Below, one piece after another: positions 18,371 through 57,782 of a stretch of DNA of 64,000 bases; the stretch's first letter is position 1; each line of letters begins with the position of its first letter. Source of the DNA: Kineococcus xinjiangensis (GTDB lineage: Bacteria; Actinomycetota; Actinomycetes; Actinomycetales; Kineococcaceae). Made by a program: the position numbers and the translations under genes. The notes under the pieces were generated by a model. The model was not told where the DNA came from, did no database searches, and saw only the letters and a list, made by a program, of their open reading frames with translations. The stretch lies in contig NZ_PTJD01000002.1 in the NCBI RefSeq assembly GCF_002934625.1, positions 186,001 to 250,000 on the forward strand, given 5' to 3'.

Positions 18371-18465
18371 GACGATGGGGGTCCCTTCACTGGGGCGGGG
18401 GACGGCGACTGGCTTGGCGGTAGGGCGCCGTCCCCGCGCGGTGTTCTGGCATGTGTCAGTGTGCC

Positions 18466-18529
18466 CTAGCACATCAGCTTGATGCAACAGATGCGCTAGC
18501 TCGTGCTAGAGCGCCCTGATGGCTACCCT
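18466..18529. promoter_or_regulatory. divergent promoter with operator-like repeats for the GntR repressor
   Basis: CTAGCAC (18466-18472) and its complement GTGCTAG (18503-18509) flank a palindromic GCTAGC (18495-18500). TACCCT at 18524-18529 is a minus-10 box six bases before the GntR ATG, implying a leaderless transcript whose minus-35 region coincides with GTGCTAG. Repressor binding there would silence both its own gene and the divergent transfer operon. Confidence 0.5.
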
Positions 18530-18535
18530 CGGCGC

Positions 18536-18946: not shown

Positions 18947-19057
18947 TGGGGACAGAGGGGTGACAGTCCGCGGACAGCTGCTTGTCACCCCTTGGTTGTC
19001 ACCAGCGGCAGCGCGCATGCTGGGCATCGACCTGCAGGCGAGCGAGGAGGCCACGGA

Positions 19058-20299: not shown

Positions 20300-20460
20300 C
20301 GACCGCTTCCACGACGTTGAAGAATCATCAGTGGCCGCAACCTGAAGGGCTTCTTGCCGCCATGCCATGAACCCCAATAGGCACGTCTCAACGTGCCGGC
20401 CGTACATACATCCTCAGCCCCAGGATGCGCTTGTGGGCACCTAGCGACGAGAATACAAAC

Positions 20461-22830: not shown

Positions 22831-23369
22831 GGAATCCTCCAAAATGGGCGAACGGGGCGACTCGCCGGATTACCCTCATTAGCCAGCTCGGGCGATCCAC
22901 TGTCTGCGCTCACGCCTCTATAAGGTAAAGCCTGACGTCCAGCCTGCCGATCGATCACCAAAAGCAGCCACTCCACAATCCGCTCACGGAGCCCATGGCC
23001 ACTTACTGGACCGCAAAATATCCAAAATGAGGCTTCAGGCGCAGGTGGACCCATCCACTCATATACTCGCTGGCCAGCTAATTCAGCGTCATTGCCCAAT
23101 GCCGCGATGCCGATTGACAGCGTCGGATCAGTGGACTGCCGCTCCCGCGAGGCCAAGATCGACGATTGAGCATGGCCCGTCCAGACGTCTTGGGTGAGCA
23201 ATGCATGAATCGCCAGACTCGTCGGCTGGGCACCCACTTCCCGCACTTGTCGAATGTCAAGAACCCTGACATCCCTGGACTGTTCTACATCATCGCGAGC
23301 GCCTAAGTACGCTCGCTCCCACTGATGATGTATAGGATGACCCGAGAACTGGGTCACAATAATAATCAT
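22827..23369 (-). CDS. unrecognised 180-aa protein, second gene of low-GC cargo operon
   Basis: It starts MIIIVTQFSGHPIHHQWERA at an ATGA overlap with the membrane-protein gene and ends at a GTGA overlap with the helical-repeat gene. The alternation of hydrophobic strands and helices (VRVLDIRQVREVG; LSIGIAALGNDAE; ASFWIFCGPVSGHGLRERIV) suggests a small alpha/beta domain. No P-loop, caspase-like His-Cys pair or other active site can be assigned with confidence. No family recognised. Confidence 0.6.
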   Translation of the reverse strand: MIIIVTQFSGHPIHHQWERAYLGARDDVEQSRDVRVLDIRQVREVGAQPTSLAIHALLTQDVWTGHAQSSILASRERQSTDPTLSIGIAALGNDAELAGQRVYEWMGPPAPEASFWIFCGPVSGHGLRERIVEWLLLVIDRQAGRQALPYRGVSADSGSPELANEGNPASRPVRPFWRIP

Positions 23370-24031
23370 GGAACCGCAGTGATCATTATTGAAACATCTG
23401 GATCATCAAGCCTAAATGACGTCTCGGCCTCACCGCAGACGCCGCGGCGCACCTTAAGCACGAATGGCTCGCCAACTCCGCCTTCCACCTGCGCTGTGAC
23501 CACATCCTTTAGGGCGGGGCATGCGTCGACCAGTTCCTGCCTGTCGGCCCCACCTAACACCCGGATCTGTTTCCACTCGTCTGAAGGTTTCCAAAACGCA
23601 ATGGTGGCGGCCACGAGAGTGGCCGCCACCGCCAATACGGCAGAGACTGCGCCAACCGTCACAAATCCTCGTATCGGGCGCGCTTCATTCTCGCAGTATG
23701 TCTTAACTTCCTCCGCGAAATTGGTAGTCTCTGAGGGCGCTTTCGGGCTTGGATAAACGCTGGCCACCAGAAAGAGAACGACGGCCAACGTAAAGAACAG
23801 CAGTGCGGCCGCAACGGCGGACCGCAATAGAACGTTATCCTCGAGGGATGGACTATTTAGCGCAATAGCAAGCGTTGCTGCCGTTGCCGCTCCTAAAAGT
23901 CCGCCAGCGGTGGCTCCGCGTGTACGCCATGCATCGGGCGCAGCAACCAGCCTTGTTAGCCACTGTGTCTCAGCCTCCTCTTCAAGGCGAGTAACTTCGG
24001 TGGGGTCGGCCACTGGCCCAGCATGGTGCAT
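23366..24031 (-). CDS. unrecognised membrane protein, first gene of low-GC cargo operon
   Basis: From the ATG at 24031 (CGAGG five bases upstream) it has 221 residues; a GTG at 24133 would add 34, but its Shine-Dalgarno would abut the start. After a charged helix (EVTRLEEEAETQWLTRL) come three hydrophobic segments, about residues 40-58, 68-93 and 120-143. A soluble 75-residue C-terminal domain follows, with two Cys (DACPALK and RGVCGEA) that may pair. The layout, a small membrane module in an operon with a helical-repeat protein, resembles effector-sensor sets in defence operons, but no homologue is known to me. Confidence 0.6.
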   Translation of the reverse strand: MHHAGPVADPTEVTRLEEEAETQWLTRLVAAPDAWRTRGATAGGLLGAATAATLAIALNSPSLEDNVLLRSAVAAALLFFTLAVVLFLVASVYPSPKAPSETTNFAEEVKTYCENEARPIRGFVTVGAVSAVLAVAATLVAATIAFWKPSDEWKQIRVLGGADRQELVDACPALKDVVTAQVEGGVGEPFVLKVRRGVCGEAETSFRLDDPDVSIMITAVP

Positions 24032-24527
24032 GCGTGCCTCGGAGCGCGACTGCATCCTCGTGGCCGCGGCGAGGTTGGTCGATGTGCCAACCGGTCGGGT
24101 CTGCGTCTGGAAGCATCTGCGTGGACTGGTCACCTCCGTGCCACTGCCTTTTCTTGATCTCAGACGACCAACGTGGCACTACATGAGACCAACGGTTGCG
24201 GATCGGCGCTCGACAATCGCCGCCTAACGAGGACGGTCGCACACGGTCTCTTGTACGGCTCACCCTAGTAAGACGTGCGGAAGAACTGCCGCACCGCGAT
24301 GGCTGCCACGCTGAATCGGCATGTCAGCCCTTGAGGCTGTCCCCGCTGTCCCCGCTGTCCCCGCTCCATGGATACGACGCTGGAACAACCCGGGTGTTGC
24401 AGCGTCCGATGCCGCGGCCACGGGCCACACACGGGCCACACGGGGAGACCACGAGGGGCCACTCCAGGCCGCTCACGACCACCCGTCTGAGCACGGATGC
24501 CCTGTGGTGAGCACTGGGGTTGTTCAG
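24032..24527. other. non-coding right end of AICE with decayed and repeated sequence
   Basis: No convincing gene. Three tandem copies of GCTGTCCCC occupy 24336-24362. Read on the plus strand they would give an Ala-Val-Pro repeat like the one ending the replication ATPase, possibly a relic. Two copies of CGGGCCACAC lie at 24421-24430 and 24432-24441, matching a motif near attL. The promoter of the cargo operon should lie near 24040-24250. Confidence 0.5.
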
Positions 24528-42259: not shown

Positions 42260-43297
42260 ATGGCGGCGAGCATGCGTGACGTGGCCGCACGCGCGGGCGT
42301 CTCGCCGCGGACGGTGTCCAACGTCGTCAACGGCTCCCCGCTCGTGGCCGCCGCCACCCGCACGCGCGTCGAGCAGGCCATGCGGGAACTGCGCTACCGG
42401 CCCAACGCCGCCGCCCGCAGCCTGCGCCGCGCCCGCTCCGGCCTCGTCGCCCTCGTCGTGCCGGAGGTGGACTCGCCCTACTTCGGCGAGATCGCCGCCT
42501 TGCTCAGCCGCGCCGCGGAGCAGCGGCAGTGGACCCTGCTCATCGAGCAGACCGGCGGCGACGCCGAGCGCGAGCGCCGCCTGCTCGACGGGATGCGCGC
42601 CCAGCTCGTCGACGGCGTCGTCTTCAGCCCCTGGGCCCTGCGGGCCGCGGACCTGGCGCAGCGACGGGACAGCTCCCCCCTCGTCCTCCTCGGCGAGCGG
42701 GTGGACGGGCACGCCGGCGACCCCGTCCCCGCGGACCACGTGGTGATCGACAACGTGGCGGCCGCCGCGGAGGCCACCGCTCACCTGCTGGCGACGGGCC
42801 GGCGCCGCATCGCCGCCGTCGGCGCCCGCTCGCGCGTCGGCGACGACACCGCGCGGCTGCGCCTGCAGGGCCACCACCGCGCCCTGGCGGCCGCCGGGAT
42901 CCCCCGCGACCCCGACCTCGAACTGGCCGTGACCGCGCTGCACCGCGCCGACGGAGCCGCGGCCGTCCACCGGCTGCTGCAGCGCGGCACCGACGTCGAC
43001 GCCCTCTTCTGCTTCACCGACCAGCTCGCCCTCGGCGCGCAGCGGGCCGCGCGGGAGCACGGCCTGCGGGTGCCCGAGGACCTCGCCGTCGTCGGGTTCG
43101 ACGACGTCGAGGACGGCCGCTACGCCACCCCGTCCCTCACGACGATCTCCCCCGACAAGCACGCCATCGCCGAGCGGGCCGCGCAGTGCCTCGCCGAGCG
43201 GCTCGCCGCCGCACCGGACGACGCTCCCCCGCCGCGCACCGTCGTCGTCGGACACCGCCTGCTCGTGCGCGAGTCGAGCGGGACCTCCCCCGCCTGA
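42260..43297 (+). CDS. LacI-family regulator divergent from PhyH
   Basis: A 345-residue repressor. The ATG at 42260 has GGGAGGAG six bases upstream; a longer frame from 42131 would cross the operators. Helix-turn-helix MRDVAARAGVSPRTVSNVVN, hinge NAAARSLRRARS, then an effector domain with FFDDVEDG-like VVGFDDVEDGRYATPSLTTI. The tandem TTGCCACGTGGCAA sites beside it are its probable targets, giving autoregulation and control of the dioxygenase. Confidence 0.88.
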   Translation: MAASMRDVAARAGVSPRTVSNVVNGSPLVAAATRTRVEQAMRELRYRPNAAARSLRRARSGLVALVVPEVDSPYFGEIAALLSRAAEQRQWTLLIEQTGGDAERERRLLDGMRAQLVDGVVFSPWALRAADLAQRRDSSPLVLLGERVDGHAGDPVPADHVVIDNVAAAAEATAHLLATGRRRIAAVGARSRVGDDTARLRLQGHHRALAAAGIPRDPDLELAVTALHRADGAAAVHRLLQRGTDVDALFCFTDQLALGAQRAAREHGLRVPEDLAVVGFDDVEDGRYATPSLTTISPDKHAIAERAAQCLAERLAAAPDDAPPPRTVVVGHRLLVRESSGTSPA

Positions 43298-45620: not shown

Positions 45621-46784
45621 ATGGTCGAGGTCGGGGACTCACCGCGCCTGCCTGACATGTACGAAGACGTGCTCGAGGAGGTGTGCGGATACGTCTTCGC
45701 TGCGCTGCCTCGCGAGGATCAGCGGCGCGCCGGTCGGGAGTACGTGCGCGGTCTGATCCTGACGTCAGGGCGCAAGACCGTGCGCGGCATGGTGACGTGC
45801 AAGGCCGCGGCGTCGGCGCGAGAGCAGCGTCTCCACCACTTCGTCAGCCGGTCGACATGGTCTTCCCGAGAAGTTCGTCAGCGACTGATGGACTTCCTCC
45901 TCAACGTGAGCAGGCTCAGCGCCTGGATCGTGCAGCCCACCGTGCTGAAGAAGTCCGGTGTTCACACAGTCGGGGTGAAGAACGAGGTCGTGCCCTGTCT
46001 GGGGAAGCAGATCAACCATCAGCACGTCCTGGCCTCATGGTACGTCGGGGACGATCTGATGGCTCCCGTGGATTGGCGCCTGGTCCTCCCCAGCGAGTGG
46101 ACGCAGGATGCGGCACGGCGACGTCGGGCAGGGATACCCCAGCACGTCGACAGCGAGACGCCCACGCAAAGTGCTGTCGGTCTCATCCGCGCTCTCCCCC
46201 CGGGGACCGCGTCCACCTCGGCTCCCCCGGTCCTGATGGATACGCGCGAGACCCACACGCCGGCAATCCTCAGCACCGCGGTGGAGCGGGGCATGCCGTA
46301 CCTGCTGCGCGTACCCGGCAGCTTGTCCCTGACTGTCCACGATGGGCACTGTGCGCTACCCAAGGGCTTCGCCGGACGGGCGCAGCGCCTGGCCCAAGCG
46401 GCCCGACCCGCCGGGTGGGCCGTAGCAGGGCTTCCCGATCGGAGGGTCCTTCGACTTCCGGTGGTCGTCGACGACGCCCACGGCGCCTCGCGCCAGACCC
46501 GCCTCTTCGCTGACTGGTCCGGCGACAAGGGCTGGGCCAAGCTGTGGGTGACCGACCTGGAGGTTGACGACACGCAGATCCTGCGGCTGGCTGCGCATCT
46601 CGAGTTGGCTGAGCGCACCTACGAGCACGTCTCCCGATCGCTGGGAGCGACTGACTACGAGGGGCGCTCCTACGTCGGGTGGCACCATCACATGAGCTTG
46701 GTCTCGATCGCCCAGGCGGTTCAGGCTTTGGCCGCTGGCGCTCCGGTGACGGCTCGGCCCGAAGCGCAGGGCATCGCCCCCTAG
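45621..46784 (+). CDS. IS701-like transposase-derived protein with altered catalytic site
   Basis: A 387-residue protein. The N-terminal block (YVFAALPREDQRRAGREYVRG, then GRKTVRGM and HHFVSRSTWSS) and the C-terminal EGRSYVGWHHHMSLV are those of IS701-family transposases. The family usually reads Ile-Asp-Asp-Thr-Gly before a Lys-Lys-Gly turn; here the same place reads WIVQPTVLKKSG, so Gln105-Pro106 replace the catalytic Asp pair. The second Asp region (VLMDTRETHTPA) remains. The frame is whole and has a good GGAGG, so this looks like a retained, non-transposing protein rather than a relic. A DNA-binding regulatory role is a guess. Confidence 0.7.
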   Translation: MVEVGDSPRLPDMYEDVLEEVCGYVFAALPREDQRRAGREYVRGLILTSGRKTVRGMVTCKAAASAREQRLHHFVSRSTWSSREVRQRLMDFLLNVSRLSAWIVQPTVLKKSGVHTVGVKNEVVPCLGKQINHQHVLASWYVGDDLMAPVDWRLVLPSEWTQDAARRRRAGIPQHVDSETPTQSAVGLIRALPPGTASTSAPPVLMDTRETHTPAILSTAVERGMPYLLRVPGSLSLTVHDGHCALPKGFAGRAQRLAQAARPAGWAVAGLPDRRVLRLPVVVDDAHGASRQTRLFADWSGDKGWAKLWVTDLEVDDTQILRLAAHLELAERTYEHVSRSLGATDYEGRSYVGWHHHMSLVSIAQAVQALAAGAPVTARPEAQGIAP

Positions 46785-46817: not shown

Positions 46818-48011
46818 TCAGTCGTGAACCGTCAGCGCCGACGCTGCGGCCGAGAGCAGTGAGGAGGCTCTCCGGTCGTCCGGGCCGAGCGCGATGAGGC
46901 GGTTCATGACGTAGGAGACGCCCGCACCGACGCGCGGCCATGCCTGGTTGGCGGAGCCGCCGCCTCCGTCATGCCCGAAGCTCACCCCGTCGGGTCCGGG
47001 GCGCGGCTGGGTGCGCAGCCGGTAGCCCCCGCCGCCGTAGGACATCGGAACGTCGATGAGAGGGTCGGTCGCGCGAACGTGGACTCCCCTGGCGTCGTCG
47101 AGAACCGGACGGGAAAGCAGGTGCGGACGCTCCCCCGGTGCCCGCATAGCGTCCTCGGCGAGCATGCCGTAGAGGCGGGCGAAGTCGCGGGCTGTTCCGG
47201 CGACGTTGACGGCGGGGATCAGCGCTTGCAGTCTCTCCCGCGCACTCCACAGGTCCTCATGCGGGGGGAAGGGCATGGGGTTGCTCCACACGCGACGCGT
47301 CAGTGGATCCGCGTTGGCGAAGAATCCGCTGAACTGAGCGAGGAACTCCGTCCCATACTCCGTGCGAGCCACTCTGGCGAGGTCCCGATCAGGCACCCCG
47401 AAGTGCAGGTCCAGGCCGTGCGGGCGGGCGATCTCCTGACGGAAGAAGGCATCGAGCGGGCGGCCGTCGACGCGGCGCACCAACTCGCCGATGATCCAAC
47501 CGGAGGTGAACGGCCCGTACATGAGGCCGTGGGCGCGAGGGTCGCTCTCCGGCTCCTGTGCGGCCAGCAGCGCGGCCATGGCACGAGCATCGAGGATGTC
47601 ATCCTGGCTGACGCTCACGCGCAGTGCCGGCATCGCCGCGGTGAACGTGGCGACCTGCCTGATCGTGATGCCGTGCTTGCCCGCGGCGGCGAACTCCGGC
47701 CAGTACCGGGCCACCGCGTCGTCGAGGCGCAACTGCTCCCGCTCCACGAGCAGCAGCAACGCGGTGACGACGATGCCCTTGCTGCCGGAGAAGATGATCT
47801 GCAGCGTGTCCCGTCCCCACGGCCGCCCTGTCCTGGAGTCGGCCACCCCGCCCCACAGGTCCACGACCAGCCGACCGCCGCGGTACAGCGCAAAGGCCGC
47901 ACCGAGCTCGCCACGATCGGTGAAGTTCCTGGCGAACTCCTCCGCGACCGCTTCGCAGCCCGGCTCGACCGCCGCACCTTCCGGCTGGAGGGTTGCCGTC
48001 ACGTCAGGCAT
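46818..48011 (-). CDS. serine hydrolase of the beta-lactamase/EstB family
   Basis: A 397-residue class C-type serine hydrolase. The nucleophile Ser-x-x-Lys lies in FSGSKGIVVTALL (about residue 85), and LMYGPFTSGWIIGELV carries the Tyr of the second motif. The C-terminal SFGHDGGGGSANQAW provides the His-Gly motif. There is no signal peptide, so esterase or carboxylesterase activity in the cytoplasm is more likely than beta-lactam resistance. Its ATG lies within the end of the aldo/keto reductase gene (8-base overlap). Confidence 0.85.
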   Translation of the reverse strand: MPDVTATLQPEGAAVEPGCEAVAEEFARNFTDRGELGAAFALYRGGRLVVDLWGGVADSRTGRPWGRDTLQIIFSGSKGIVVTALLLLVEREQLRLDDAVARYWPEFAAAGKHGITIRQVATFTAAMPALRVSVSQDDILDARAMAALLAAQEPESDPRAHGLMYGPFTSGWIIGELVRRVDGRPLDAFFRQEIARPHGLDLHFGVPDRDLARVARTEYGTEFLAQFSGFFANADPLTRRVWSNPMPFPPHEDLWSARERLQALIPAVNVAGTARDFARLYGMLAEDAMRAPGERPHLLSRPVLDDARGVHVRATDPLIDVPMSYGGGGYRLRTQPRPGPDGVSFGHDGGGGSANQAWPRVGAGVSYVMNRLIALGPDDRRASSLLSAAASALTVHD

Positions 48012-48861
48012 CCTCGACGAGGCGAACCAGCTGCTCATCGCTGAGGTGGATCTCGGCTGCCGCGAGGTTCTCCTCCAGGTGCGCCACGGACGAGGTCCCG
48101 GGAATAGGGGCGATGACCGGGGATCGGTGCAGCAGCCAAGCGAGGGAGACCTGGGCCGGGGTGGCGCCCACCTCGTCGGCGACCACCGCCAACGCACCGT
48201 TGCGCTTGGCCAGTTCGCCCACGGCGATCGGGAAGAACGGCATGAAGGCGATGCCTGCGCTCTCGCAGAAGTCCACCACGTCGTTGTCGTCGCGGGTGGA
48301 GAGGTTGAAGAGGTTCTGCACCGCGGTGATCTCGGTGATGCGCATTGCTTCCTCGATCTGCTCCACGGTCACCTGAGACAGCCCCACCTGGCCCACCTTC
48401 CCGGCCTCCTGAAGCTCCTTGAGAGCGCCGATCTGCTCCGCTAGGGGCACCGTCGGGTCGACGCGGTGCAGCAGGAACAGGGGCAGGCGCTCCATCCGGA
48501 GCCGGCGCAGGCTGAGCTCCGCCTGCTGCTTGAGGTACTCCGGGCGTCCCAGCGGAATCCACTCCTCAAGAGTGGGGCCAGGGCGGCTCACGCCGGCCTT
48601 GGTGACGATCGTGATGTCGTCGCGTCCACCGAACGCCTCGCCCAGCAGCTCCTCATTGTCCCCCAGCGCGTAGGAGTCAGCGGTGTCGAACAGTTCGACG
48701 CCACGATCGGCAGCGCCTCGGAGGAGGGTGATCGCTGCTGCACGGTCGACGGGCCCGCGCCACACGTCCTGGTCGCTCAGGCGCATCGCGCCGTACCCGA
48801 TCCGGGCGACCGTCAGGTCCCGGCCGATCTGCACCTTGGCGCGCATCGTCGTCGTCGTCAT
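48004..48861 (-). CDS. aldo/keto reductase
   Basis: A 285-residue NADPH-dependent TIM-barrel reductase. The catalytic Asp and Tyr are in LFDTADSYALGDNEELLGEAF, the Lys in ITIVTKAG and the His in LFLLHRVDP. The cofactor end reads PGTSSVAHLEENLAAAEIHL. ATG at 48861. It diverges from the cyclase operon across a 280-bp gap and is coupled to the serine hydrolase, so it might serve the cyclitol pathway or general carbonyl detoxification. Confidence 0.88.
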   Translation of the reverse strand: MTTTTMRAKVQIGRDLTVARIGYGAMRLSDQDVWRGPVDRAAAITLLRGAADRGVELFDTADSYALGDNEELLGEAFGGRDDITIVTKAGVSRPGPTLEEWIPLGRPEYLKQQAELSLRRLRMERLPLFLLHRVDPTVPLAEQIGALKELQEAGKVGQVGLSQVTVEQIEEAMRITEITAVQNLFNLSTRDDNDVVDFCESAGIAFMPFFPIAVGELAKRNGALAVVADEVGATPAQVSLAWLLHRSPVIAPIPGTSSVAHLEENLAAAEIHLSDEQLVRLVEDA

Positions 48862-48946
48862 GGGAGGACACCACCTTCGTCGTCGACCGACGCACGGTGC
48901 GCCGGTGAGGCCCACCATCAAGGCGCGCGTGTCGCCACAGCAACGA

Positions 48947-49002
48947 GAACCACCGTGGTTCGTCACAACGGTGAGACTTCGTCATGTCGGACTTGACGAA
49001 GT
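48947..49002. promoter_or_regulatory. two palindromes in the divergent promoter of the cyclitol operon
   Basis: GAACCAC-C-GTGGTTC (48947-48961) is an exact 7+1+7 palindrome. ACTTCGTCA (48976-48984) and its complement TGACGAAGT (48994-49002) form a 9-bp inverted repeat with a 9-bp gap. Both lie between the reductase and cyclase starts and could be operators for an unlinked regulator. Confidence 0.6.
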
Positions 49003-49141
49003 GCAGCGGAGGTGACGCACACGGGCCGGGATGCTGTTCGCGGCCGTGGCGAAGCGATTGGGTCTGACCACTCTGCCAGCTCACCGAGGCATCGCCACCT
49101 GCAACAGGAGAGCGAGCCCCTGGCCAGCATCTGGAGGAATC

Positions 49142-50341
49142 ATGACCGTGACCGACTCGACGAGCGGCCTCGTCGTCCGCAGCAGCAGGGTTGACACCTG
49201 GCGCGTCCACGCCACCCAGGAAGTGGCCTACGAGATCCGGCAGTGCGACGACGTGTTCGACCCGGACTCCACCGACCTGGTGCACGCCGCCCGAGGCGCC
49301 GGGTCGCGGCGCCGCTTCGTCGTCATCGACTCCCGGGTCAACGAGCTCTACGGCGCCCGCATGGTCGAGTACTTCGACCACCACGGTGTGGAGGCGCGCA
49401 TCCTCCCGCTTGAGGTCGATGAGACGGTGAAGAACCTGGACACCGTCACCCGCATCGTGCGTGAGATCGATGCCTTCGGGATCGACCGGCGGCGGGAGCC
49501 GATCATTGTCATCGGTGGCGGGGTCATCATGGACGTCGTCGGGCTCGCTGCGAACCTCTACCGCCGCGGCACCCCCTTCGTGCGCGTACCCACGACCCTG
49601 ATCGGCCTGGTCGACGCAGGGGTGGGCGTGAAGACCGGCGTGAACTTCAACTCGCACAAGAACCGGCTGGGCACCTACTTCGACAAGTCCCTGACGCTGC
49701 TCGACACCGGCTTCCTCGCCTCTCTGGACCGGCGCCACCTCTCCAACGGGCTCGGCGAGATCCTCAAGATCGCGCTGATCAAGGACCGTGAGCTGTTCGT
49801 TCTCCTCGACCGCTTCGGCGCAGACCTGCTGCGGGAACGGTTCCAGAACAGCGATCGTCTCGGCCGCCGCGCAGCTGCCAGCACGCTGCAGCGCGCCATC
49901 CAGGGGATGCTGGAGGAGCTGCAGCCGAACCTGTGGGAGGCGAACCTGGAACGTTTGGTGGACTACGGGCACACCTTCAGCCCCACCATCGAGATGCGCG
50001 CCCTGCCCGAGCTGCTGCACGGTGAGGCCGTCGCGGTCGACATGGCCATCACCACGATGATCGCGACCCACAGGGGGCTGATGTCCGCCGCGGAGAGCGC
50101 CTCGGTGCTCAACGTCATGGCCAAGCTCGGACTGCCGACCTGGGACGACAGCCTGGACGCCGACCTCCTCGCGCGAGCCCTGGAGGAGACGGTGCGACAC
50201 CGCGACGGCCAGCAGCGTCTGCCGCTGCCCGTCGGGATCGGCGCGGCCACCTTCGTCAACGACGTCACCCATCAGGAGCTCGACGCTGCCCTGTCGAGCC
50301 TGCACAGCGCGAGCTACAGCAAGGAGTTGCAGACCGCATGA
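49142..50341 (+). CDS. sedoheptulose-7-phosphate cyclase (2-epi-5-epi-valiolone synthase type)
   Basis: A 399-residue member of the dehydroquinate-synthase fold. The ATG at 49142 has GGAGG four bases upstream. The NAD-site IIVIGGGVIMDVVGLAA, YRRGTPFVRVPTTLIGLVD, GVKTGVNFNSHKNRLGTY and the metal-binding NGLGEILKIALIKD, DYGHTFSP and HGEAVAVDMA follow the pattern of C7-cyclitol synthases rather than of AroB. The enzyme would turn sedoheptulose 7-phosphate into 2-epi-5-epi-valiolone, or an isomer if it is the EVS or desmethyl-4-deoxygadusol type. It heads an eight-gene operon. Confidence 0.88.
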   Translation: MTVTDSTSGLVVRSSRVDTWRVHATQEVAYEIRQCDDVFDPDSTDLVHAARGAGSRRRFVVIDSRVNELYGARMVEYFDHHGVEARILPLEVDETVKNLDTVTRIVREIDAFGIDRRREPIIVIGGGVIMDVVGLAANLYRRGTPFVRVPTTLIGLVDAGVGVKTGVNFNSHKNRLGTYFDKSLTLLDTGFLASLDRRHLSNGLGEILKIALIKDRELFVLLDRFGADLLRERFQNSDRLGRRAAASTLQRAIQGMLEELQPNLWEANLERLVDYGHTFSPTIEMRALPELLHGEAVAVDMAITTMIATHRGLMSAAESASVLNVMAKLGLPTWDDSLDADLLARALEETVRHRDGQQRLPLPVGIGAATFVNDVTHQELDAALSSLHSASYSKELQTA

Positions 50342-52017
50342 AGACGGCAACGTTCACCGGCCCTTCGAAGGTGGCCACCGCGGCCGCGCCGGGTGGCGCG
50401 ACGCTGCGGCGCCGGGAGCTCCTGAAGGGCGCAGGCGTCGGGGCCCTGCTGGCGGGTAACGTCCCCACCGCTACCGCCCGAGCCGCCACTCCTAGCGTCG
50501 CGGCCATCGGCGAGGGTGTGCTGACGGTGACGCCCACCGACCGGCAGTACCCCGACCTGATAACGCCGTTCAACCAGCGTTGGGTCGGCTCCCCCGACGC
50601 GGTCCGCATGCCCACCTCCACCGACCAGGTCGTCGGCATCGTTCAGGACGCCGTGCGGCGCAACAAGCGCGTCGCCGTGCGCGGCGGTGGCCACGGCTAC
50701 GAGGACTGGATCTACAACCCGGAGGTGCAGGTCGTCATCGACATGGGGCACCTGCGCAAGGTGACTTACGACCCGAAGCGGCGCGCCTTCGCCGTGGAAG
50801 CCGGCGCGAACCTCATCGAGGTCTACAACGCCCTCTACGAAGGCTACGGGGTGACCGTGCCGGCAGGGGTCTGCTCACTCGTCGGTGTCGGCGGCCACGT
50901 CAGCGGCGGCGGGTACGGGATGCTGTCTCGCAAGCTGGGCCTCATCGTCGACTACCTGCAGGCGGTGGAGGTCGTCGTCGTCGACGCCCACGGGAGGGCC
51001 CGGAGCGTCATCGCGAGCCGTGACCCGCTCGATCCCGCCCACGACCTGTGGTGGGCACACTGCGGCGGCGGTGGCGGCAACTTCGGAGTGATCACCCGCT
51101 ACTGGTTCGCCGACCCCGGGGCCAGCGGCTCCGATCCGACCCGGCTCCTGCCGGCCCCACCCGCGGAAGTTCTCATCCTCAACCCCACCTGGGACTGGAA
51201 GGGCATCACCCGCGAGGGCTTCACCGCTCTGCTGGACACCTACGGCGCCTGGCACGAGCAGCACTCCTCCCCCTCCAGCCCCTACAGCGGCCTGTGCTCC
51301 TGGCTGTTCCTCAACCACCGCTCCTCCGGTTCGATCGGCGCGCTGATCCAGATGGACGCCACCGGGGAGGATGCCGAGCAGTTGGCCACCCAGTTCCTGG
51401 ATCAGCTCGATCAGGCTCTCGGCATCAAGCGCAAGGACAGCGTGCTGCGGCTGCCGTGGTTGAAGGCCACCAGGCACATGGGCTCCAGCAGCCCGCTGCA
51501 GACCAGCCCCACCTACCGCGGGGAGCACAAGTCCGCCTACATGCGCAGGAACTTCCCCCGCCGGCACATCGACGCCGCCTGGCGGCACCTGACCCGGGAG
51601 GACTACGCCAACCCCCTGGGCATGATGGTCATCACCTCCTACGGCGGCGCCATCAACGCCGTGGACCCTGGCGCCACTGCCGTCGCCCAGCGCGACGCCA
51701 TCCTCAAGCTCCTTTACCAGACCTACTGGACCAGTCCCCAGGACGACAGCTCCAACGTCGCATGGCTGCGGGAGTTCTACTCCGACGTCTACGCGGAGAC
51801 CGGTGGCGTGCCCGTTCCCGACGATGTCACCGATGGGTGCTACGTCAACTACCCCGACGGCGACATCAGCGACCCCGGGCTCAACACCTCCGGCGTCGCC
51901 TGGCACACGCTGTACTACAAGGACAACTACCCGCGGCTGCAGCAGGTCAAGGCGCGTTGGGACCCGCGCAACTTCTTCCACCACCACCAGTCCATCCGCC
52001 TTCCCGGAGCACAGTGA
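50338..52017 (+). CDS. Tat-exported FAD-linked oxidase with BBE domain
   Basis: A 559-residue flavoprotein of the berberine-bridge/PCMH family. A twin-arginine leader (LRRRELLKGAGVGALLAGN) predicts export. The FAD domain has VRGGGHGYEDW with His119 and GVCSLVGVGGHVSGGGYG with Cys179, the pair that attaches FAD bicovalently in oxidases such as GOOX and AknOx. The C-terminal BBE segment ends DPRNFFHHHQSI. It probably oxidises a secondary alcohol of the cyclitol or a derived lactol outside the membrane. ATGA overlap with the cyclase gene. Confidence 0.88.
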   Translation: MKTATFTGPSKVATAAAPGGATLRRRELLKGAGVGALLAGNVPTATARAATPSVAAIGEGVLTVTPTDRQYPDLITPFNQRWVGSPDAVRMPTSTDQVVGIVQDAVRRNKRVAVRGGGHGYEDWIYNPEVQVVIDMGHLRKVTYDPKRRAFAVEAGANLIEVYNALYEGYGVTVPAGVCSLVGVGGHVSGGGYGMLSRKLGLIVDYLQAVEVVVVDAHGRARSVIASRDPLDPAHDLWWAHCGGGGGNFGVITRYWFADPGASGSDPTRLLPAPPAEVLILNPTWDWKGITREGFTALLDTYGAWHEQHSSPSSPYSGLCSWLFLNHRSSGSIGALIQMDATGEDAEQLATQFLDQLDQALGIKRKDSVLRLPWLKATRHMGSSSPLQTSPTYRGEHKSAYMRRNFPRRHIDAAWRHLTREDYANPLGMMVITSYGGAINAVDPGATAVAQRDAILKLLYQTYWTSPQDDSSNVAWLREFYSDVYAETGGVPVPDDVTDGCYVNYPDGDISDPGLNTSGVAWHTLYYKDNYPRLQQVKARWDPRNFFHHHQSIRLPGAQ

Positions 52018-53177
52018 TGCACCCGCAGACCAGCGGCAGCCGACTGCCCACCTTGACCTCGCTGCGCTTCCTCGCAGCCTTGGCGGTCTTCGTGACACAC
52101 ATCGCGGTGGCACGCCTGTTCCTCGACGCCTCCATCAGCGACGGGCTCGCCCGGTACCTCAGCAGGCTCGGGTACGCGGGAGTGTCCTTCTTCTTCATCC
52201 TCTCCGGCTTCGTGCTGATGTGGTCCACGCGCCCCGGTGACACCCCTACCGCCTTCTACCGTCGTCGCCTGGCCAAGATCTATCCCAACCACGTCGCGAC
52301 GTGGCTGGCAGGGCTAGTGCTCATGGCGGTGACCGGTGCGACCCTCACTTGGGGTGCGGCCCTGCCAAGCCTCTTCCTGCTGCAGAGCTGGTCACCCGAC
52401 CTCACCGTGCTGAGCGGCACCAACGGACCGAGCTGGTCGCTGGCCTGCGAGCTCCTCTTCTACCTCTCCTTCCCTCTCCTCGCCCCGATCCTGCTGCGCA
52501 TCCCCCGTCGGCGGCTGGTAGCCAGTGCAGCGGGGATCACCGCGGTGATCGTCCTCATCCCGGTTTTCGCGCAGCTCCTGCCCGAGCAGCCGCTCTCTCC
52601 GTTCCAGCCGGTGTCCTGGGCGCGCAACTGGTTCGTGTACTTCCTTCCGCTCTCGCGGCTGCCCGAGTTCGCCCTCGGCATGGTGATGGCCCGCATCCTG
52701 CGCGACGGACTCTGGCCGGGGATGCCCGTTCGGTGGGCACTGGCGCTCGTCGCTGGCGGCTACGTCCTGCAGGTCTGGCTGCCCGACGCCTACGGACTCG
52801 TCGCTCCCACCACAGCGCCCCTCGCGCTGCTCATCACCGCCTACGCGCACCGCGATGTCACCGGCGCGCGCACCTTCCTCACCAGGAAGGAGCTGGTCTG
52901 GCTCGGGGAGGTGTCGTTCGCGTTTTACATGGTTCATTTCCTCGTCCTGCAGTACGGACCCATCGGTCTCGCGACCCGCGCGAGCGGGGACGTCGCACGC
53001 GCCACGCCCACCGCGGTCACCCTCATCCTCATCTCCCTGCTCGTCACCCTGGTCGCGGGAGCACTGCTGCACCGCTTCATCGAAGTGCCCTGCATGAAGC
53101 GCTTCGGGCGCAGCCGCACACCGCAGACGAGCACCACGCCCGGGCCGGCCGTCGCAGCAGCGACCCAGGAGGTCTGA
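52017..53177 (+). CDS. membrane acyltransferase 3 family protein
   Basis: A 386-residue integral protein with about ten hydrophobic segments. LTSLRFLAALAVFVTHIAV opens with the catalytic-type His, then FFFILSGFVLMWSTR and PSWSLACELLFYLSFP, the standard acyltransferase-3 blocks. Such enzymes O-acylate sugars or antibiotics using cytoplasmic acyl-CoA. ATG at 52017 shares one base with the stop of the oxidase gene (TGATG). It suggests that the cyclitol product is acylated. Confidence 0.87.
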   Translation: MHPQTSGSRLPTLTSLRFLAALAVFVTHIAVARLFLDASISDGLARYLSRLGYAGVSFFFILSGFVLMWSTRPGDTPTAFYRRRLAKIYPNHVATWLAGLVLMAVTGATLTWGAALPSLFLLQSWSPDLTVLSGTNGPSWSLACELLFYLSFPLLAPILLRIPRRRLVASAAGITAVIVLIPVFAQLLPEQPLSPFQPVSWARNWFVYFLPLSRLPEFALGMVMARILRDGLWPGMPVRWALALVAGGYVLQVWLPDAYGLVAPTTAPLALLITAYAHRDVTGARTFLTRKELVWLGEVSFAFYMVHFLVLQYGPIGLATRASGDVARATPTAVTLILISLLVTLVAGALLHRFIEVPCMKRFGRSRTPQTSTTPGPAVAAATQEV

Positions 53178-53178
53178 G

Positions 53179-53613
53179 GTGACCTACAACAGCGACCTCA
53201 TCGACGAGTTCCGAAGCTGCAGAGGACGGACTCGGGACTTCCGCGAGACGCCCCTGCTGCTGCTGACCACGCAGGGACGGGTCAGCGGCCACCAGCGCAC
53301 CACACCTCTGGTCTACCTGCCCGACCACGACGACTTCATCGTCTTCGCCCTCAACGGGGGAGCTCCTGAAGACCCCCAGTGGTACCTCAACCTGCGCGCT
53401 TCCGGCACAGGAGCGGTCGAGACGGGTGAGCGCACGGTCCACGTGCGAGCATCGACCGTCGAGGGCAGTGAGGCGGAGGCCCTGTGGAACCGTCAGATCG
53501 AGCGGGTGCCGCAGTTCGCCGACTTCCGCGCCAAGACCACACGCGCTGTCCCGGTGGTTCGCCTGCGCCCGTCGGGACCCGGACGGCCCCAGGCAGGGAG
53601 TGACCCGTCGTGA
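53179..53613 (+). CDS. deazaflavin (F420)-dependent nitroreductase family protein
   Basis: A 144-residue split-barrel protein of the DDN family. LLLLTTQGRVSGHQRTTPLVY and FIVFALNGGAPEDPQWYLNLRA are the family core, the second containing the cofactor-binding area. GTG at 53179 follows AGGAGG by six bases. Family members reduce enones or nitro groups with F420H2. In this operon it could reduce an enone formed by dehydration of the cyclitol; that is inference. Confidence 0.85.
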   Translation: MTYNSDLIDEFRSCRGRTRDFRETPLLLLTTQGRVSGHQRTTPLVYLPDHDDFIVFALNGGAPEDPQWYLNLRASGTGAVETGERTVHVRASTVEGSEAEALWNRQIERVPQFADFRAKTTRAVPVVRLRPSGPGRPQAGSDPS

Positions 53614-54296
53614 TCGACCTCGTCGGAGGAGTCCCCCACTGCATCGGTGAGGTCCAGGCGCTGCTGTTCGACATGGACGGCACCCTGCTGGACTCGGACG
53701 CCTGCATCACCCGCGCTTGGAGCGACTTCGCCGCGCGACGAGCTCTTCCGGTGGCCGACGTGCTCAGCCTGGTTCCAGGACGCACTGCCGCCGAGATCGT
53801 CTCCGCCTTCCTCCCCGACGCGGACGACGTTCGCCGCGAGGTGGCTCACCTGCAGACCTTCCAACTCAGGCACCTGGAGGGCATCGTGGCGGTCAGAGGC
53901 GCGCTGGAACTGCTGTCGCGGCTGGATGGGCTGCCCTGGGCGGTGGTGACCTCCGCACCTCGGGAGGTAGCGCGCCTTCGCCTGCGCGCAGCCGGGCTGC
54001 CGGCAGCACCGCTGCTGCTCGCCGACGAGGACGTGCAGCGCAGCAAACCGGATCCTGAGGGGTTCCTCGCCGCGGCGGCCGCCTTGGGTACCGACATCGG
54101 GCGATGCGTGGTGTTCGAGGACTCCGCCGCCGGCCTGCGAGCCGCCCACGCCTCAGGCGCACAGGTGGTCGCCCTGGCCCCTTCCGCGCCCGTCCCGGAC
54201 GGCGTGGGCCTCACGGTGCGCGACCTGCGAGAGGTGCGCGTGCGCCGCGACGGCCAGGGGCATGCCGTGGACCTGCTGAGGGTGCAGGGGCCGTGA
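53610..54296 (+). CDS. HAD-superfamily phosphatase (beta-phosphoglucomutase-like)
   Basis: A 228-residue HAD hydrolase of the IA class. Nucleophile and acid Asp lie in LLFDMDGTLLDSDA, the motif II Ser/Thr in WAVVTSAPREV, the Lys in SKPDPEGF and the acidic pair in VVFEDSAAG. The GTG start overlaps the previous stop (GTGA). It would remove a phosphate put on by the ROK kinase encoded next, as AcbJ-like phosphatases are proposed to do in acarbose-type pathways. Confidence 0.85.
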   Translation: MIDLVGGVPHCIGEVQALLFDMDGTLLDSDACITRAWSDFAARRALPVADVLSLVPGRTAAEIVSAFLPDADDVRREVAHLQTFQLRHLEGIVAVRGALELLSRLDGLPWAVVTSAPREVARLRLRAAGLPAAPLLLADEDVQRSKPDPEGFLAAAAALGTDIGRCVVFEDSAAGLRAAHASGAQVVALAPSAPVPDGVGLTVRDLREVRVRRDGQGHAVDLLRVQGP

Positions 54297-55282
54297 GTCG
54301 CGTCGTGGCCGTCGACGTCGGCGGAACGTGGTTCCGGGTCGGCTCCTCCTGCAAGGACATCGGCGCATCGACCGTGCAGCGCGTGCGCTCGCCCAGCCTG
54401 CTCAACAACCCCGGGGAGTCCGTCGAATCCCTCATGGCGACGCTGCTGTCGATGCTCGACACCGCTGCTCCGTTGGGGGCGGAGGTCTCGATCTCGCTGG
54501 GCGCGGCACTCGATGAGTCCACTGGCACGGTGTACGGCTCCGCTCCATTGTGGGGTGACTACACCGGCGCCTTCCCACTGCGGGAGGAGCTGCGACGTCG
54601 CCGACCCGATGTGTCCTGGCAGGTGTTCAACGACCTCACCTGCGGACTGGCTGACTTCAGCGCCCGCGCTGGTGGTCAGGGTGCACGCCGGATCGGGTAC
54701 CTGACGGTCAGCAGCGGCATCGCCTACCGCTCGGCCGACCTGACTCGGCGCGAGATCGAGGTCGACGCTTCGGGCCTGCAAGGGGAGATCGGGCACACTA
54801 CCGCCCCACCGGTGCAGGACCCGCTCCTGGCGGGAACGCCCCTCCCCTGCGACTGCGGTGGTCACGGCCACGTCGCGTCCTGCGCTTCGGGGCCGGGGAT
54901 GGCGCGCATGGCACGGGCCCTCGACCTGCCCTGCGCCGAGCGGTTCCCCGACGGCTTCACCGACGAGCTGCGGGAGCGTCGTCACGGTGCCCGCTCTCTG
55001 CTGCGGGAGGCCGTGAGACCCGTCGCCCACGTCCTGCGCACGATCTGGCAGATCAGCCCGCACACCGATGTCATCGGCGTGGGCGGAGGCGTCGCCGAGA
55101 ACCTCGGCACCTTCTACGAACAGGAACTCACCCGACAGATCTGCGAGCAGCGATCCTACGCGGACCGCTGGCTCACTCCCGAGTTGATCTCGCGGCGGTT
55201 GCGGATCGCTCGCCCCGGCGAGGCGGACTGCCTTCGCGGCGCACTGCTCATGGCAGAGGGCTACCTCAGCGTCACCAAGTGA
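54293..55282 (+). CDS. ROK-family sugar/cyclitol kinase
   Basis: A 329-residue kinase. The phosphate-binding loop reads VVAVDVGGTWFRVG, the catalytic Asp is in FNDLTCGLADF, and the zinc site is a variant (CDCGGHGHVASCASG). The last nucleotide contact is VIGVGGGVAENLG. C7-cyclitol kinases ValC and AcbM belong to this family, and with the cyclase in the same operon a 2-epi-5-epi-valiolone kinase is the best guess. GTGA overlap with the phosphatase gene. Confidence 0.85.
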   Translation: MSRVVAVDVGGTWFRVGSSCKDIGASTVQRVRSPSLLNNPGESVESLMATLLSMLDTAAPLGAEVSISLGAALDESTGTVYGSAPLWGDYTGAFPLREELRRRRPDVSWQVFNDLTCGLADFSARAGGQGARRIGYLTVSSGIAYRSADLTRREIEVDASGLQGEIGHTTAPPVQDPLLAGTPLPCDCGGHGHVASCASGPGMARMARALDLPCAERFPDGFTDELRERRHGARSLLREAVRPVAHVLRTIWQISPHTDVIGVGGGVAENLGTFYEQELTRQICEQRSYADRWLTPELISRRLRIARPGEADCLRGALLMAEGYLSVTK

Positions 55283-55347
55283 CATGCAGCGGGAGCGGAG
55301 ATCTCGCGCGGCAAGGACAGCGACAACACTGATTCGGAGGACGAACT

Positions 55348-56514
55348 GTGCAACGACACCGCGCGATCGTGCGGCGTGGAGACACCTGCGCACTGCAGCA
55401 CGTGCCCACGCCCACGCCTGGGCCGGGGGAAGTCGTGATCGCCGCGGAGATGGTCAGCCTCTGCGGCACAGACATCCAGATCCTCCGAGGGATGCGTGAT
55501 GACCCGTCCCCGATCGTCGGGCACGAAGGACTGGCCCGCGTCGCCGCGGTCGGGGAGGGGGTCGAGAACCTCGCCATCGGGCAGCGGGTGATGGTCAACC
55601 CCACCGCGCCGGATGACCCCTCCTTCCTCCTCGGTCACAACGTGGAGGGGCTCTTCCAGGAGCGCACGCTCCTTCCGGCCAGCGCCGTCACTGCCGGACA
55701 GATCGTGAGTGTCGGCGCACATCGGGATCCGAAGACGACGACGGGGAACGGGACGGACACCGTCTCCAGCACCGAGGCGGACCTGGATGCCGGGCTCGGC
55801 ACACTGGTGGAGCCACTGGCCGTCGTGCGCTACGCACTGGCCTGTCTCACGCGGCAGCAGGTCACGCACCTGGTGGTCCTCGGTGGCGGGCTCATCGGCC
55901 TGCTCGCCGCCCTGGTGGCCAGGCGCACCTTCGGCCCGGCCATGTCGATCACGGTGGTCCACCACAACGACGACGTCCGGGCATGGGCGCAGCGGGCTCT
56001 GGGCCCTGGACTGCACCACGTCGACGACCGCGACGCCGACACGCACCTGCAGCACGCAGTCGATGCTCCGTGCGCCGTCCTGGCGGCCGGCTACCGCGAC
56101 GCCACCGTCACGAGCATCGACACGGCGGCCACCCTCCTTCGCGATCGGCTGCGCGCCGTGCACGCCGTCGGAGGCGTCGCGGCCGGCGATCGCAGCGCGG
56201 TGTTCCCCTCCCTCGACCTCGCCGCCGCACGGGCAGCCAACACCGGTGCTCCCTGGCCACCTCGGGTCAGCGAAGAGATCCCCAAGGGCGCTGCCACGCC
56301 GGTTCACTTCACGGGAAATCGCGGAGTGAGCAACGACATGCTGCAAGCTGCCTTCGACGAACTGCGCCGACACGGCGCAGACTACGCCCGACTGTTGACG
56401 CATCGCGTCGGCATGGCCGAGGGCGTGGCGCTCATCAACACGATCTGCCGTGACAAGCAGCGCGTCGTCAACGGCTCCCCCGTCATCCGCCTCGTGGTGG
56501 ACCTGCACCGATGA
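55348..56514 (+). CDS. zinc-type medium-chain dehydrogenase, probable cyclitol dehydrogenase
   Basis: A 388-residue MDR protein. MVSLCGTDIQILRG and PIVGHEGLARV hold the first zinc ligands (Cys, His-Glu). VVLGGGLIGLLAALVARR is the NAD(P) fold. The structural four-Cys zinc loop is absent, and around residues 120-150 there is a Thr/Asp-rich insert. The C-terminal part (VHFTGNRGVSNDMLQAAFDEL) is like inositol or sorbitol dehydrogenases. GTG at 55348 has GGAGG seven bases upstream, after a 65-bp gap. AcbL in acarbose synthesis is a comparable enzyme. Confidence 0.8.
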   Translation: MQRHRAIVRRGDTCALQHVPTPTPGPGEVVIAAEMVSLCGTDIQILRGMRDDPSPIVGHEGLARVAAVGEGVENLAIGQRVMVNPTAPDDPSFLLGHNVEGLFQERTLLPASAVTAGQIVSVGAHRDPKTTTGNGTDTVSSTEADLDAGLGTLVEPLAVVRYALACLTRQQVTHLVVLGGGLIGLLAALVARRTFGPAMSITVVHHNDDVRAWAQRALGPGLHHVDDRDADTHLQHAVDAPCAVLAAGYRDATVTSIDTAATLLRDRLRAVHAVGGVAAGDRSAVFPSLDLAAARAANTGAPWPPRVSEEIPKGAATPVHFTGNRGVSNDMLQAAFDELRRHGADYARLLTHRVGMAEGVALINTICRDKQRVVNGSPVIRLVVDLHR

Positions 56515-57782
56515 CCCTCCCACGTCACGAGGAGCACACCTCCCGACCGCTGCGTGCCACGGCCTCGAACAGCCGCACGGGCGCTGCCGACCCCACTACT
56601 CCGGAGCGCGGCGCCGCGACATCCGCCCTGACCCGCGATCGAGTCACCCTGTCGCTGTACGCCTCGCTCGGAATCCTGGGCTACCTCCTCACCGGCATGG
56701 GCGCCATCCTGATCCCCCTGCAGGAGCAGCTGCACGTCGAGCGCGCCGCGGTGGCCTTCTATCCGACCACCTTCGCCGCTTCGCTCCTCGTCGTCGGGCT
56801 CGCCGGCGAGCGGCTCACCGCACGCTGGGGACACCAGCTGGTGCTGCGCACGGCCGTGCTCTCGATGGCCGGCGGGGCGGGCCTGCTCACCACTTCCTCC
56901 TGGCCACTCACCCTCACCGGTGCGCTGCTCTTGGGGGCCGGAGGTGCCCTCACCGTCCAGATCGTCCCCGCCGGACTGCACGTGCACCACGGCAAGCGGG
57001 CACCTGCGGCACTCGCCGAAGCCAGCGCCCTGAGCAGCTTCGCCTCCCTGCTGGCCCCGCTGGCCGTTGCCACTGCCATCGCCACCGGAGTCGGCTGGCA
57101 GGCCGGCTACCTCGTCGTCCTGCCACTCGCGCTGCTGCTCATCGGGGTCGCCAAGGTTCCCTGGAAGCCCTCATCTGCGCCGAGCAGCCCACCGGACGAG
57201 CATCCGCCGCTGCCCGCTGCCGGGTCGCTCCTCCAGCGCTGCATCGACGTCCTGCTCGCCATCGGCATCGAGTTCTGCCTGATGCTCTGGTCCGCCGACG
57301 CCTTCACCCAGTGGCACCACGTCAGCGCTGCCCAGGCTCCGGCTCTCGCCGCCCTTTTCGTCCTGGGCATGGCCATCACCCGCGCGGCCGCCACCCCCCT
57401 CACCGCGAGATGCTCTCCCAGGGCCGTCATGCTCGGCGCGTGCGCCACCGCCTCTCTCGGCTTCCTGCTCTTCTGGGCAGCCCCCGCCCTCGTCCTCAGT
57501 GCCGTGGGGTTGTTCCTGGCAGGGCTGGGAGTGGCGTTGCTGTACCCATTGGCCCTCGCCCGTGTCGTGCAGGCATCACCAGAGGCCCCTGACCACGCCG
57601 CTGCCCGGGCGGCCCTGGCATCCGGACTGGCAATCGGCCTGGCCCCGCTCACACTGGCAGTCATCGGCGATCAGATCGGCCAGCGCGTGGGGTACCTCCT
57701 GGTACCAGCCCTCTTGGCAGCGCTGGCACTTCGCACCGCCCGAGACTCGGCGCAACATCACGTCCAGGACTCCGCTCGCTGA
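56511..57782 (+). CDS. MFS transporter, probable exporter of the cyclitol product
   Basis: A 423-residue major facilitator with twelve hydrophobic segments after a 45-residue polar leader. The loop between helices 2 and 3 reads GERLTARWGHQLVLR, a weak form of the family motif A. The centre has a Pro/Ser-rich cytoplasmic loop (SSAPSSPPDEHPPLP). ATGA overlap with the dehydrogenase gene makes it the last gene of the operon. Export of the final metabolite is inferred from position. Confidence 0.85.
   Translation: MTLPRHEEHTSRPLRATASNSRTGAADPTTPERGAATSALTRDRVTLSLYASLGILGYLLTGMGAILIPLQEQLHVERAAVAFYPTTFAASLLVVGLAGERLTARWGHQLVLRTAVLSMAGGAGLLTTSSWPLTLTGALLLGAGGALTVQIVPAGLHVHHGKRAPAALAEASALSSFASLLAPLAVATAIATGVGWQAGYLVVLPLALLLIGVAKVPWKPSSAPSSPPDEHPPLPAAGSLLQRCIDVLLAIGIEFCLMLWSADAFTQWHHVSAAQAPALAALFVLGMAITRAAATPLTARCSPRAVMLGACATASLGFLLFWAAPALVLSAVGLFLAGLGVALLYPLALARVVQASPEAPDHAAARAALASGLAIGLAPLTLAVIGDQIGQRVGYLLVPALLAALALRTARDSAQHHVQDSAR

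Follow-up and report, generated by a model that had tools for sequence, protein, structure and literature searches.

In the biosynthesis of acarbose, AcbM phosphorylates the product of a 2-epi-5-epi-valiolone synthase (EEVS) and AcbO epimerizes it; AcbL then gives valienone 7-phosphate, which AcbN reduces, and the HAD phosphatase AcbJ acts later in the route, according to the consulted parts of PMC9200736 and PMC7081202. We analyzed a window of 64,000 nucleotides from Kineococcus xinjiangensis (contig 2, positions 186001–250000, of a 4.6 Mb genome with a listed completeness of 100%), which contains an operon headed by the gene of an EEVS-like cyclase and, overlapping it, the gene of a bicovalent flavin oxidase with an N-terminus of the twin-arginine translocation (Tat) type. 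We propose, with a probability of about 0.55, that this operon makes a nitrogen-free, O-acylated keto-carbasugar the reactive form of which is produced outside the cell, and that it was probably acquired horizontally. Gene families, cyclase type, export signal, flavin attachment sites, conserved gene company, the lack of a 2-epimerase match and stereochemical consistency were all computed.

Like the acarbose genes acbC, M, O, L, N and J, the operon codes for an EEVS, a kinase, a dehydrogenase of the medium-chain dehydrogenase/reductase (MDR) type and a HAD phosphatase, and the last three fit the acarbose-type logic that an earlier note on this DNA had supposed. The K. xinjiangensis set differs in having no match to a 2-epimerase, and in adding an oxidase, an acyltransferase, an esterase and an F420-type reductase; moreover, a second kinase, a nucleotidyltransferase and a glycosyl- or pseudoglycosyltransferase are absent among the annotated neighbors, i.e., the genes annotated from about 41.2 to 63.4 kb of the window (two open reading frames (ORFs) at 20–24 kb were annotated besides). 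With validamycin formation it shares the cyclase type of ValA (structure 4p53) and a ROK-like cyclitol kinase, named ValC in the consulted part of PMC9200736; pseudoglycosyltransferase and aminotransferase are absent among the annotated neighbors, and the genome has no match to the VOC-type epimerase. Of the features of a C7N-aminocyclitol pathway, the 2-epimerase thus had no match in the genome, and the aminotransferase, nucleotidyltransferase and (pseudo)glycosyltransferase are missing from the annotated region; the earlier note had likewise named these three as absent.

Neither (+)-streptol nor BE-40644 contains nitrogen. Both are EEVS-linked C7-cyclitols, the former from Ca. Burkholderia kirkii (PMC8599487), the latter, which is prenylated, described in PMC5133447; in contrast to the K. 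xinjiangensis operon, a secreted oxidase or acyltransferase is not mentioned in the consulted parts of these papers. While C7-cyclitols made with an EEVS are already known, the literature searched, which excluded most subscription journals, contained no description of an EEVS cluster that includes an oxidase of this kind. Keto-carbasugars are represented by COTC, i.e., 2-crotonyloxymethyl-(4R,5R,6R)-4,5,6-trihydroxycyclohex-2-enone, and the gabosines, known from Streptomyces since the 1970s and of anticancer interest (PMC2635666, consulted in part); the same literature yielded neither gabosine biosynthesis genes nor a COTC cluster.

The cyclase and the flavin oxidase

49142–50341, + strand: sedoheptulose 7-phosphate cyclase, EEVS type as judged by scores, fingerprint and tree
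50338–52017, + strand: putative Tat-type, bicovalent-flavin, BBE-like alcohol oxidase (Pfam, best solved relatives, motif residues)

A GGAGGA stands shortly before the ATG of the cyclase gene. The protein scores 431.8 bits against the ValA chain 4p53, versus 277 against 5tpr, at most 133.5 against other chains of 3-dehydroquinate synthase (DHQS) and 92 against 2-deoxy-scyllo-inosose synthase (DOIS), scores that rule out an identity as DHQS or DOIS. At three of 14 sites that distinguish EEVS, placed on the 4p53 alignment, it carries L/D/H like ValA, as opposed to E/A/T in 5tpr and in records L146 and L003; this fingerprint rules out a desmethyl-4-deoxygadusol synthase (DDGS). The structure 5tpr, although deposited as a 3-dehydroquinate synthase, is presumably a DDGS. 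That the fingerprint sites divide EEVS from DDGS is stated in the consulted part of PMC4426668.

In a tree of 98 rows, which included eight of 58 viral sequences but neither DOIS nor characterized 2-epi-valiolone synthases (EVS), the cyclase belongs to a set of 27 rows (support 97/94), and ValA to a different set. The DDGS-like rows sit on a long branch whose origin is an unresolved fork shared with several EEVS sets, so the tree alone does not prove EEVS to be a closed group. A separate DHQS-like protein of the genome, encoded on another contig, is 29% identical to the cyclase and distant in the tree. Strong homology by score and fingerprint thus marks the cyclase as EEVS-like, the division between EEVS and EVS being left aside. 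The sedoheptulose-7-phosphate cyclase of the earlier note stands, as the grouping with DHQS or DOIS that would have spoken against it did not arise.

Proteins resembling sedoheptulose-7-phosphate cyclases, 36–42% identical to the query, are also encoded by 58 viral contigs (L088–L145). The eight examined all carry the EEVS-type L/D/H and form a clade of their own; the three tested had no PHROG match, and annotated phage records gave just seven cyclase matches, at 26–33% identity.

The oxidase gene starts 4 bases inside the cyclase gene. Its product, which comprises FAD_binding_4 and BBE domains, scores 544 bits against TamL, 522 against 2wdw, 521 against AknOx and 493 against CrmK. It has a twin-arginine N-terminus, the flavin-linking His and Cys and two conserved tyrosines, and so combines the traits of TamL/AknOx-type enzymes; the Tat-exported bicovalent flavin oxidase of the earlier note is borne out insofar as RR motif and linking residues are present. 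Conserved tyrosines have an active-site role in bicovalent oxidases. The structure 2wdw, deposited as a "putative hexose oxidase", we take to be Dbv29. The RR signal and the family suggest that the oxidase is secreted and oxidizes an alcohol outside the cell. TamL converts a hydroxyl group to a ketone, AknOx oxidizes a CH-OH group of a sugar, Dbv29 performs a four-electron oxidation via an aldehyde, and SfmCy2, exported by Tat, carries out the extracellular maturation of a prodrug (review PMC11375781, consulted in part). The K. xinjiangensis oxidase shares with TamL, AknOx, Dbv29 and CrmK the family, the bicovalent flavin residues and the conserved tyrosines, but its substrate presumably is a small cyclitol, whereas those of TamL, AknOx and Dbv29 are larger molecules (same review, whose main text contains no word starting with "cyclitol" or "carba").

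The oxidase is the sole PF08031 match in the K. xinjiangensis genome. Among 29 EEVS-linked oxidases (K. xinjiangensis counted), the linking His is conserved in all 29, the linking Cys in 28, the two tyrosines in 28 and 23, and the RR motif in 22. Of the seven proteins that lack it, several seem to have been given a wrong start by the gene caller. In a tree of these 29 and 10 other sequences, the K. xinjiangensis oxidase groups with those of three Streptomyces clusters (L008, L012 and L013, see below; support 100/99), and a 100/100 branch parts it from TamL and Dbv29. The label "EEVS-linked" or "other" changes five times in this tree, four of the changes being forced by well-supported branches, which speaks against a single origin of the EEVS-linked oxidases. 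Since they do not form one group, the pairing with EEVS probably arose more than once, although some label changes may be losses and the comparison set is small. The label "other" was judged from 3–6 kb of flanking DNA (record L159 carries no annotation), TamL and Dbv29 were labeled from knowledge, and the oxidase of L028, about 10 kb from its cyclase, may be a bystander.

Operon structure and related loci

Eight genes lie in a row on the + strand (49142–57782), with -4, -1, +1, -4, -4, +65 and -4 bases between neighbors, their Pfam families being, in order, DHQ_synthase/DHQS_C, FAD_binding_4 + BBE, Acyl_transf_3, F420H2_quin_red, HAD, ROK, ADH_N and MFS_1; in place, order and family they agree with the earlier note. 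Its operon extent holds for the + strand, but not as the left boundary of the cluster, as an aldo/keto reductase gene and an esterase gene, sharing an 8-base overlap, diverge upstream. The cluster comprises ten genes (46818–57782), and the intergenic region, to judge from its geometry, probably holds promoters that serve both arms. The remaining features are the following:

45621–46784, + strand: DDE_5 transposase at the left border, outside the pathway (PF13546, 129.6 bits)
46818–48011, - strand: beta-lactamase-fold (PF00144) protein, putative esterase or transacylase (192.5 bits)
48004–48861, - strand: aldo/keto reductase, candidate C1 ketoreductase (PF00248, 208 bits)
48862–49141, no strand: divergent intergenic region of 280 bases (gene geometry)
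52017–53177, + strand: membrane O-acyltransferase of the acyltransferase-3 family (PF01757, 102 bits)
53179–53613, + strand: deazaflavin (F420)-dependent reductase of the DDN family (PF04075, 100 bits)
53610–54296, + strand: HAD-family sugar phosphatase with a putative AcbJ-like role (PF00702/PF13419)
54293–55282, + strand: ROK-family cyclitol kinase with a putative AcbM-like role (PF00480, 44.7 bits)
55348–56514, + strand: MDR (zinc-type) dehydrogenase with a putative AcbL-like role (PF08240)
56511–57782, + strand: MFS exporter (PF07690, 76 bits)

The beta-lactamase-fold protein reaches 168 bits against the LipL-type model of NCBIfam, far under its cut-off of 650, and no signal peptide was seen by eye. 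Sequence search gave no solved relative of the acyltransferase. The DDN-family reductase exceeds the cut-off of TIGR00026 (85.9 versus 46.35), and F420_cofD (TIGR01819) is over its cut-off in the K. xinjiangensis genome and in 3 of 14 control genomes; this marker was used because PF01933, present in 10 of the 14 controls, is not specific. The kinase is up to about 50% identical to ROK proteins encoded next to other EEVS genes, and the dehydrogenase 41–48% to MDR proteins of EEVS clusters.

A genome scan confirmed 310 relatives, of which the best 80 were kept as comparison loci, so the frequencies given here describe near relatives. Genes in these loci were called by a custom script, whose output is near-empty for L005 and L006 and misses the cyclase of L064; its family step omitted the oxidases of L065 and L068, which tblastn finds. 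In tblastn searches, 30 of the 80 loci have an oxidase match no farther than about 10 kb from the cyclase, and 22 of these match the acyltransferase as well. Gene calling places an oxidase in 28 loci, with an acyltransferase-3 protein in 20, a KASIII-like protein in 7, both in 3 and neither in 4. As for chance, 40 PF08031 matches in ten genomes (about 70.7 Mb) correspond to about 0.012 per 21-kb locus, or about one expected in 80; the ten genomes were picked for holding such loci, which raises the background, and the 80 loci are mutually related and hence not independent. The HAD family occurs in 27 loci, in 22 of them alongside ROK.

The closest clusters, all uncharacterized, are those of Streptomyces griseocarneus 132 (L008), S. 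sp. UNOB3_S3 (L012) and S. olivoreticuli ATCC 31159 (L013), with identities of 64–65% for the EEVS, 54–56% for the BBE oxidase, 54% for the acyltransferase-3 and 62–63% (over 380 amino acids) for the esterase, relatives of which occur only here among the 80 loci; ROK, MDR and HAD genes are also present. Together with the oxidase in 30 of 80 loci, these clusters rule out a unique gene content, and the earlier view that the set stands alone had to be given up. They differ from K. xinjiangensis in gene order, in having the aldo/keto reductase and beta-lactamase-fold genes on the cyclase strand, and, in L008 and L012, in an added TIM-barrel 2-epimerase and short-chain dehydrogenase/reductase (SDR); L013 has lost the SDR, its epimerase is reduced to 71 amino acids, and its MDR gene is cut. 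The aldo/keto reductases lie between oxidase and kinase in the three clusters, and their link to the K. xinjiangensis enzyme is weaker, as they are about 37% identical to it and the best match, in L025, reaches 47%. Whereas the nearest relatives of oxidase, acyltransferase and esterase belong to the three Streptomyces clusters, those of phosphatase, kinase and dehydrogenase belong to EEVS clusters of Antribacter, Streptomyces and Nocardia; judged by these relatives, the gene set is a mosaic.

The TIM-barrel gene appears from its family and neighbors to be the equivalent of acbO, and the VOC gene presumably codes for a CetB/ValD-type epimerase. The former occurs in 21 and the latter in 43 of the 80 loci, never together. 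With one query each, neither type was matched anywhere in the K. xinjiangensis genome at E 0.001, a point that the earlier note had passed over. The TIM-barrel type is absent from the Antribacter and Promicromonospora genomes, which hold a related set, and the VOC matches there and in S. olivoreticuli are weak (E 4e-8 to 6e-7). S. olivoreticuli has two EEVS-oxidase clusters, of which L013, with a damaged MDR gene, retains 71 residues of the TIM-barrel gene and L040 a full copy.

Other variants were seen among the loci. L042, L052, L044, L082, L086 and similar EEVS clusters contain a KASIII-like protein and no acyltransferase-3. In L044, L046, L074, L082 and L086, a luciferase-like oxidoreductase is encoded just before HAD-ROK-MDR, approximately where the F420-type reductase gene lies in K. 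xinjiangensis. A proteobacterial EEVS operon (L005, plasmid of Agrobacterium vitis VAR03-1, 14932–22453) codes for cyclase, ROK, MDR, SDR, a sugar-phosphate isomerase/epimerase, MFS and a further MDR; an aminotransferase is not listed in its incomplete gene table.

Proposed pathway and its alternatives

We infer every reaction in K. xinjiangensis, the acyl group, the oxidized position and the self-protection role as follows. The EEVS would convert sedoheptulose 7-phosphate to 2-epi-5-epi-valiolone (EEV). By analogy with acarbose formation, the ROK kinase would form the 7-phosphate, the MDR enzyme would dehydrate it to an unsaturated ketone in an AcbL-like reaction, and the HAD enzyme would remove the phosphate. 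Reduction at C1 by the aldo/keto reductase is a guess from the presence of the gene. The membrane acyltransferase, to judge from its family, would esterify a hydroxyl group, most likely the primary one at C7, and the MFS carrier would export the product. Once outside, the compound would be oxidized to an enone by the Tat-type oxidase at a hydroxyl group of the ring, the allylic one at C4 being the likeliest. Operon position and family suggest that the F420-type reductase and the esterase might neutralize re-entering enone ester. The non-nitrogenous, acylated and oxidized carbasugar predicted by the earlier note fits this inventory.

Since no 2-epimerase was found, C2 would keep the 2-epi configuration, and the product would belong with COTC and gabosine C. 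Sedoheptulose has the configuration 3S,4R,5R,6R and valienone 4R,5S,6R. A substituent-ranking script, which as controls gave R for D-glyceraldehyde and 4R,5S,6R for valienone, assigned 5R,6R to the un-epimerized EEV carbons of a 2-hydroxymethyl-cyclohexenone with the ketone at EEV C4, and 5S after 2-epimerization. The un-epimerized carbons thus share the descriptors 5R,6R with COTC, which speaks for consistency of the route, not for identity of the product. COTC/gabosine C and the predicted product would have in common a nitrogen-free C7 enone, an O-acylated side chain and the ring configuration of un-epimerized EEV; the former are known by their chemistry and were compared without genes. An EEVS, an acyltransferase and, assuming C4 oxidation, an alcohol oxidase without a 2-epimerase therefore point to the COTC compound type. 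Tentatively, and with the odds against so specific an assignment, the operon could be a genetic route to a COTC/gabosine C-type keto-carbasugar, in which an EEVS pathway skips 2-epimerization, acylation and export are followed by enone formation outside the cell, the compound is rendered harmless inside by an F420-dependent reductase and an esterase, and the pairing of EEVS and secreted oxidase has arisen several times in actinobacteria.

Several points weigh against the keto-carbasugar proposal. The nearest clusters, L008 and L012, retain TIM-barrel 2-epimerase and SDR, therefore their product may be epimerized, and the K. xinjiangensis set might represent a shortened pathway or rely on an epimerase that escaped recognition. 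AcbL acts on the 2-epimerized phosphate, and that the MDR enzyme would accept the 2-epi compound is an assumption. The oxidase family is common away from EEVS genes (31 plasmid records at E 1e-60), and BBE-like oxidases catalyze many chemistries, so that C1 or another alcohol could be oxidized. Among the annotated operon neighbors, neither an acyl-donor gene nor a regulator was recognized, save a LacI-family gene farther left (42260–43297). The low identity of the aldo/keto reductase to its counterparts in the three Streptomyces clusters also counts here, as does the lack of matches to the DDN-type reductase and the MFS exporter in the 80 loci (called proteins, E 1e-4; tblastn, 1e-8), so that the roles of these two are read from their position in the operon alone.

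With the same inventory, the product might instead be an acylated unsaturated cyclitol of the valienol/valienone type, the oxidase re-oxidizing C1 to a valienone-like enone or oxidizing the primary alcohol. Valienol is a shunt product of acarbose formation and valienone a proposed one (PMC7081202, consulted in part), and the close relative Dbv29 performs a four-electron oxidation via an aldehyde; however, a reduction of C1 inside followed by re-oxidation outside would be sensible solely as self-protection, and we consider such a product unlikely. Still less probable is a precursor-supplying role, in which the cyclitol would be coupled to a moiety from another pathway of the genome, the conjugate being the substrate of the oxidase. 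The large substrates of TamL, AknOx and Dbv29 would agree with it, and three loci (L057, L062 and L072) combine EEVS and an oxidase of this family with a DegT-family aminotransferase, therefore the oxidase can serve other C7 products. Against it, no polyketide synthase, non-ribosomal peptide synthetase, glycosyltransferase or prenyltransferase occurs among the annotated neighbors, and the operon has its own exporter.

We find it hard to regard the cluster as a non-functional remnant that lost epimerase and SDR, perhaps along with a transposase insertion, and no longer makes a product. A transposase gene does lie directly to the left, and S. olivoreticuli L013 is an example of such a loss, but all ten reading frames are intact and mostly overlapping, with a third-position GC content of 0.81–0.92, and the TIM-barrel type is likewise missing, with weak VOC matches, in Antribacter and Promicromonospora. 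Least credible of all is an oxidase that is merely co-transcribed and forms H2O2 from environmental sugars: BBE-like carbohydrate oxidases exist, several among the solved relatives, yet the gene shares 4 bases with that of the cyclase, is the sole copy in the genome and has matches beside EEVS genes in 30 of 80 loci.

Borders, origin and implications

The rarity of the operon, its lower GC content and the adjacent transposase gene make its horizontal acquisition, which forms part of the keto-carbasugar proposal, probable. Of 396 genomes sampled from the order, two gave matches at E 1e-110, and of 99 genomes, two did so at E 1e-60, K. xinjiangensis being counted in both; the GC content is 0.692 versus 0.737 and 0.755. 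To the right, the cluster is followed by genes of a TauE-type exporter and a GGDEF/EAL protein. The insertion borders were compared by synteny: for the GGDEF/EAL flank gene, dozens of paralogs blur the comparison, and the flank gene resembling that of glyceraldehyde-3-phosphate dehydrogenase has counterparts at 75–77% in 4 of 11 family relatives. The GGDEF/EAL protein has 53 matches at E 1e-30 in the 4.6 Mb K. xinjiangensis genome, versus 22–47 in the 11 family relatives. Farther left, positions 20001–24000 of the window have a GC content of 0.57–0.58, versus about 0.70–0.71 on both sides; the minus-strand ORFs 20461–22842 and 23366–24133 had no Pfam match at 1e-5.

No description of the related actinobacterial clusters was found in the literature searched. 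Together with the operon, they offer a compact candidate gene set for carbasugars of the COTC/gabosine type, along with a predicted configuration. Extracellular oxidation coupled with intracellular reduction is covered by references of PMC11375781 (consulted in part). If the proposal is true, a carbasugar would join this "oxidize outside, reduce inside" scheme of self-protection; if the EEVS–oxidase pairing moreover arose several times, extracellular oxidative activation could be a general theme of the C7-cyclitols.

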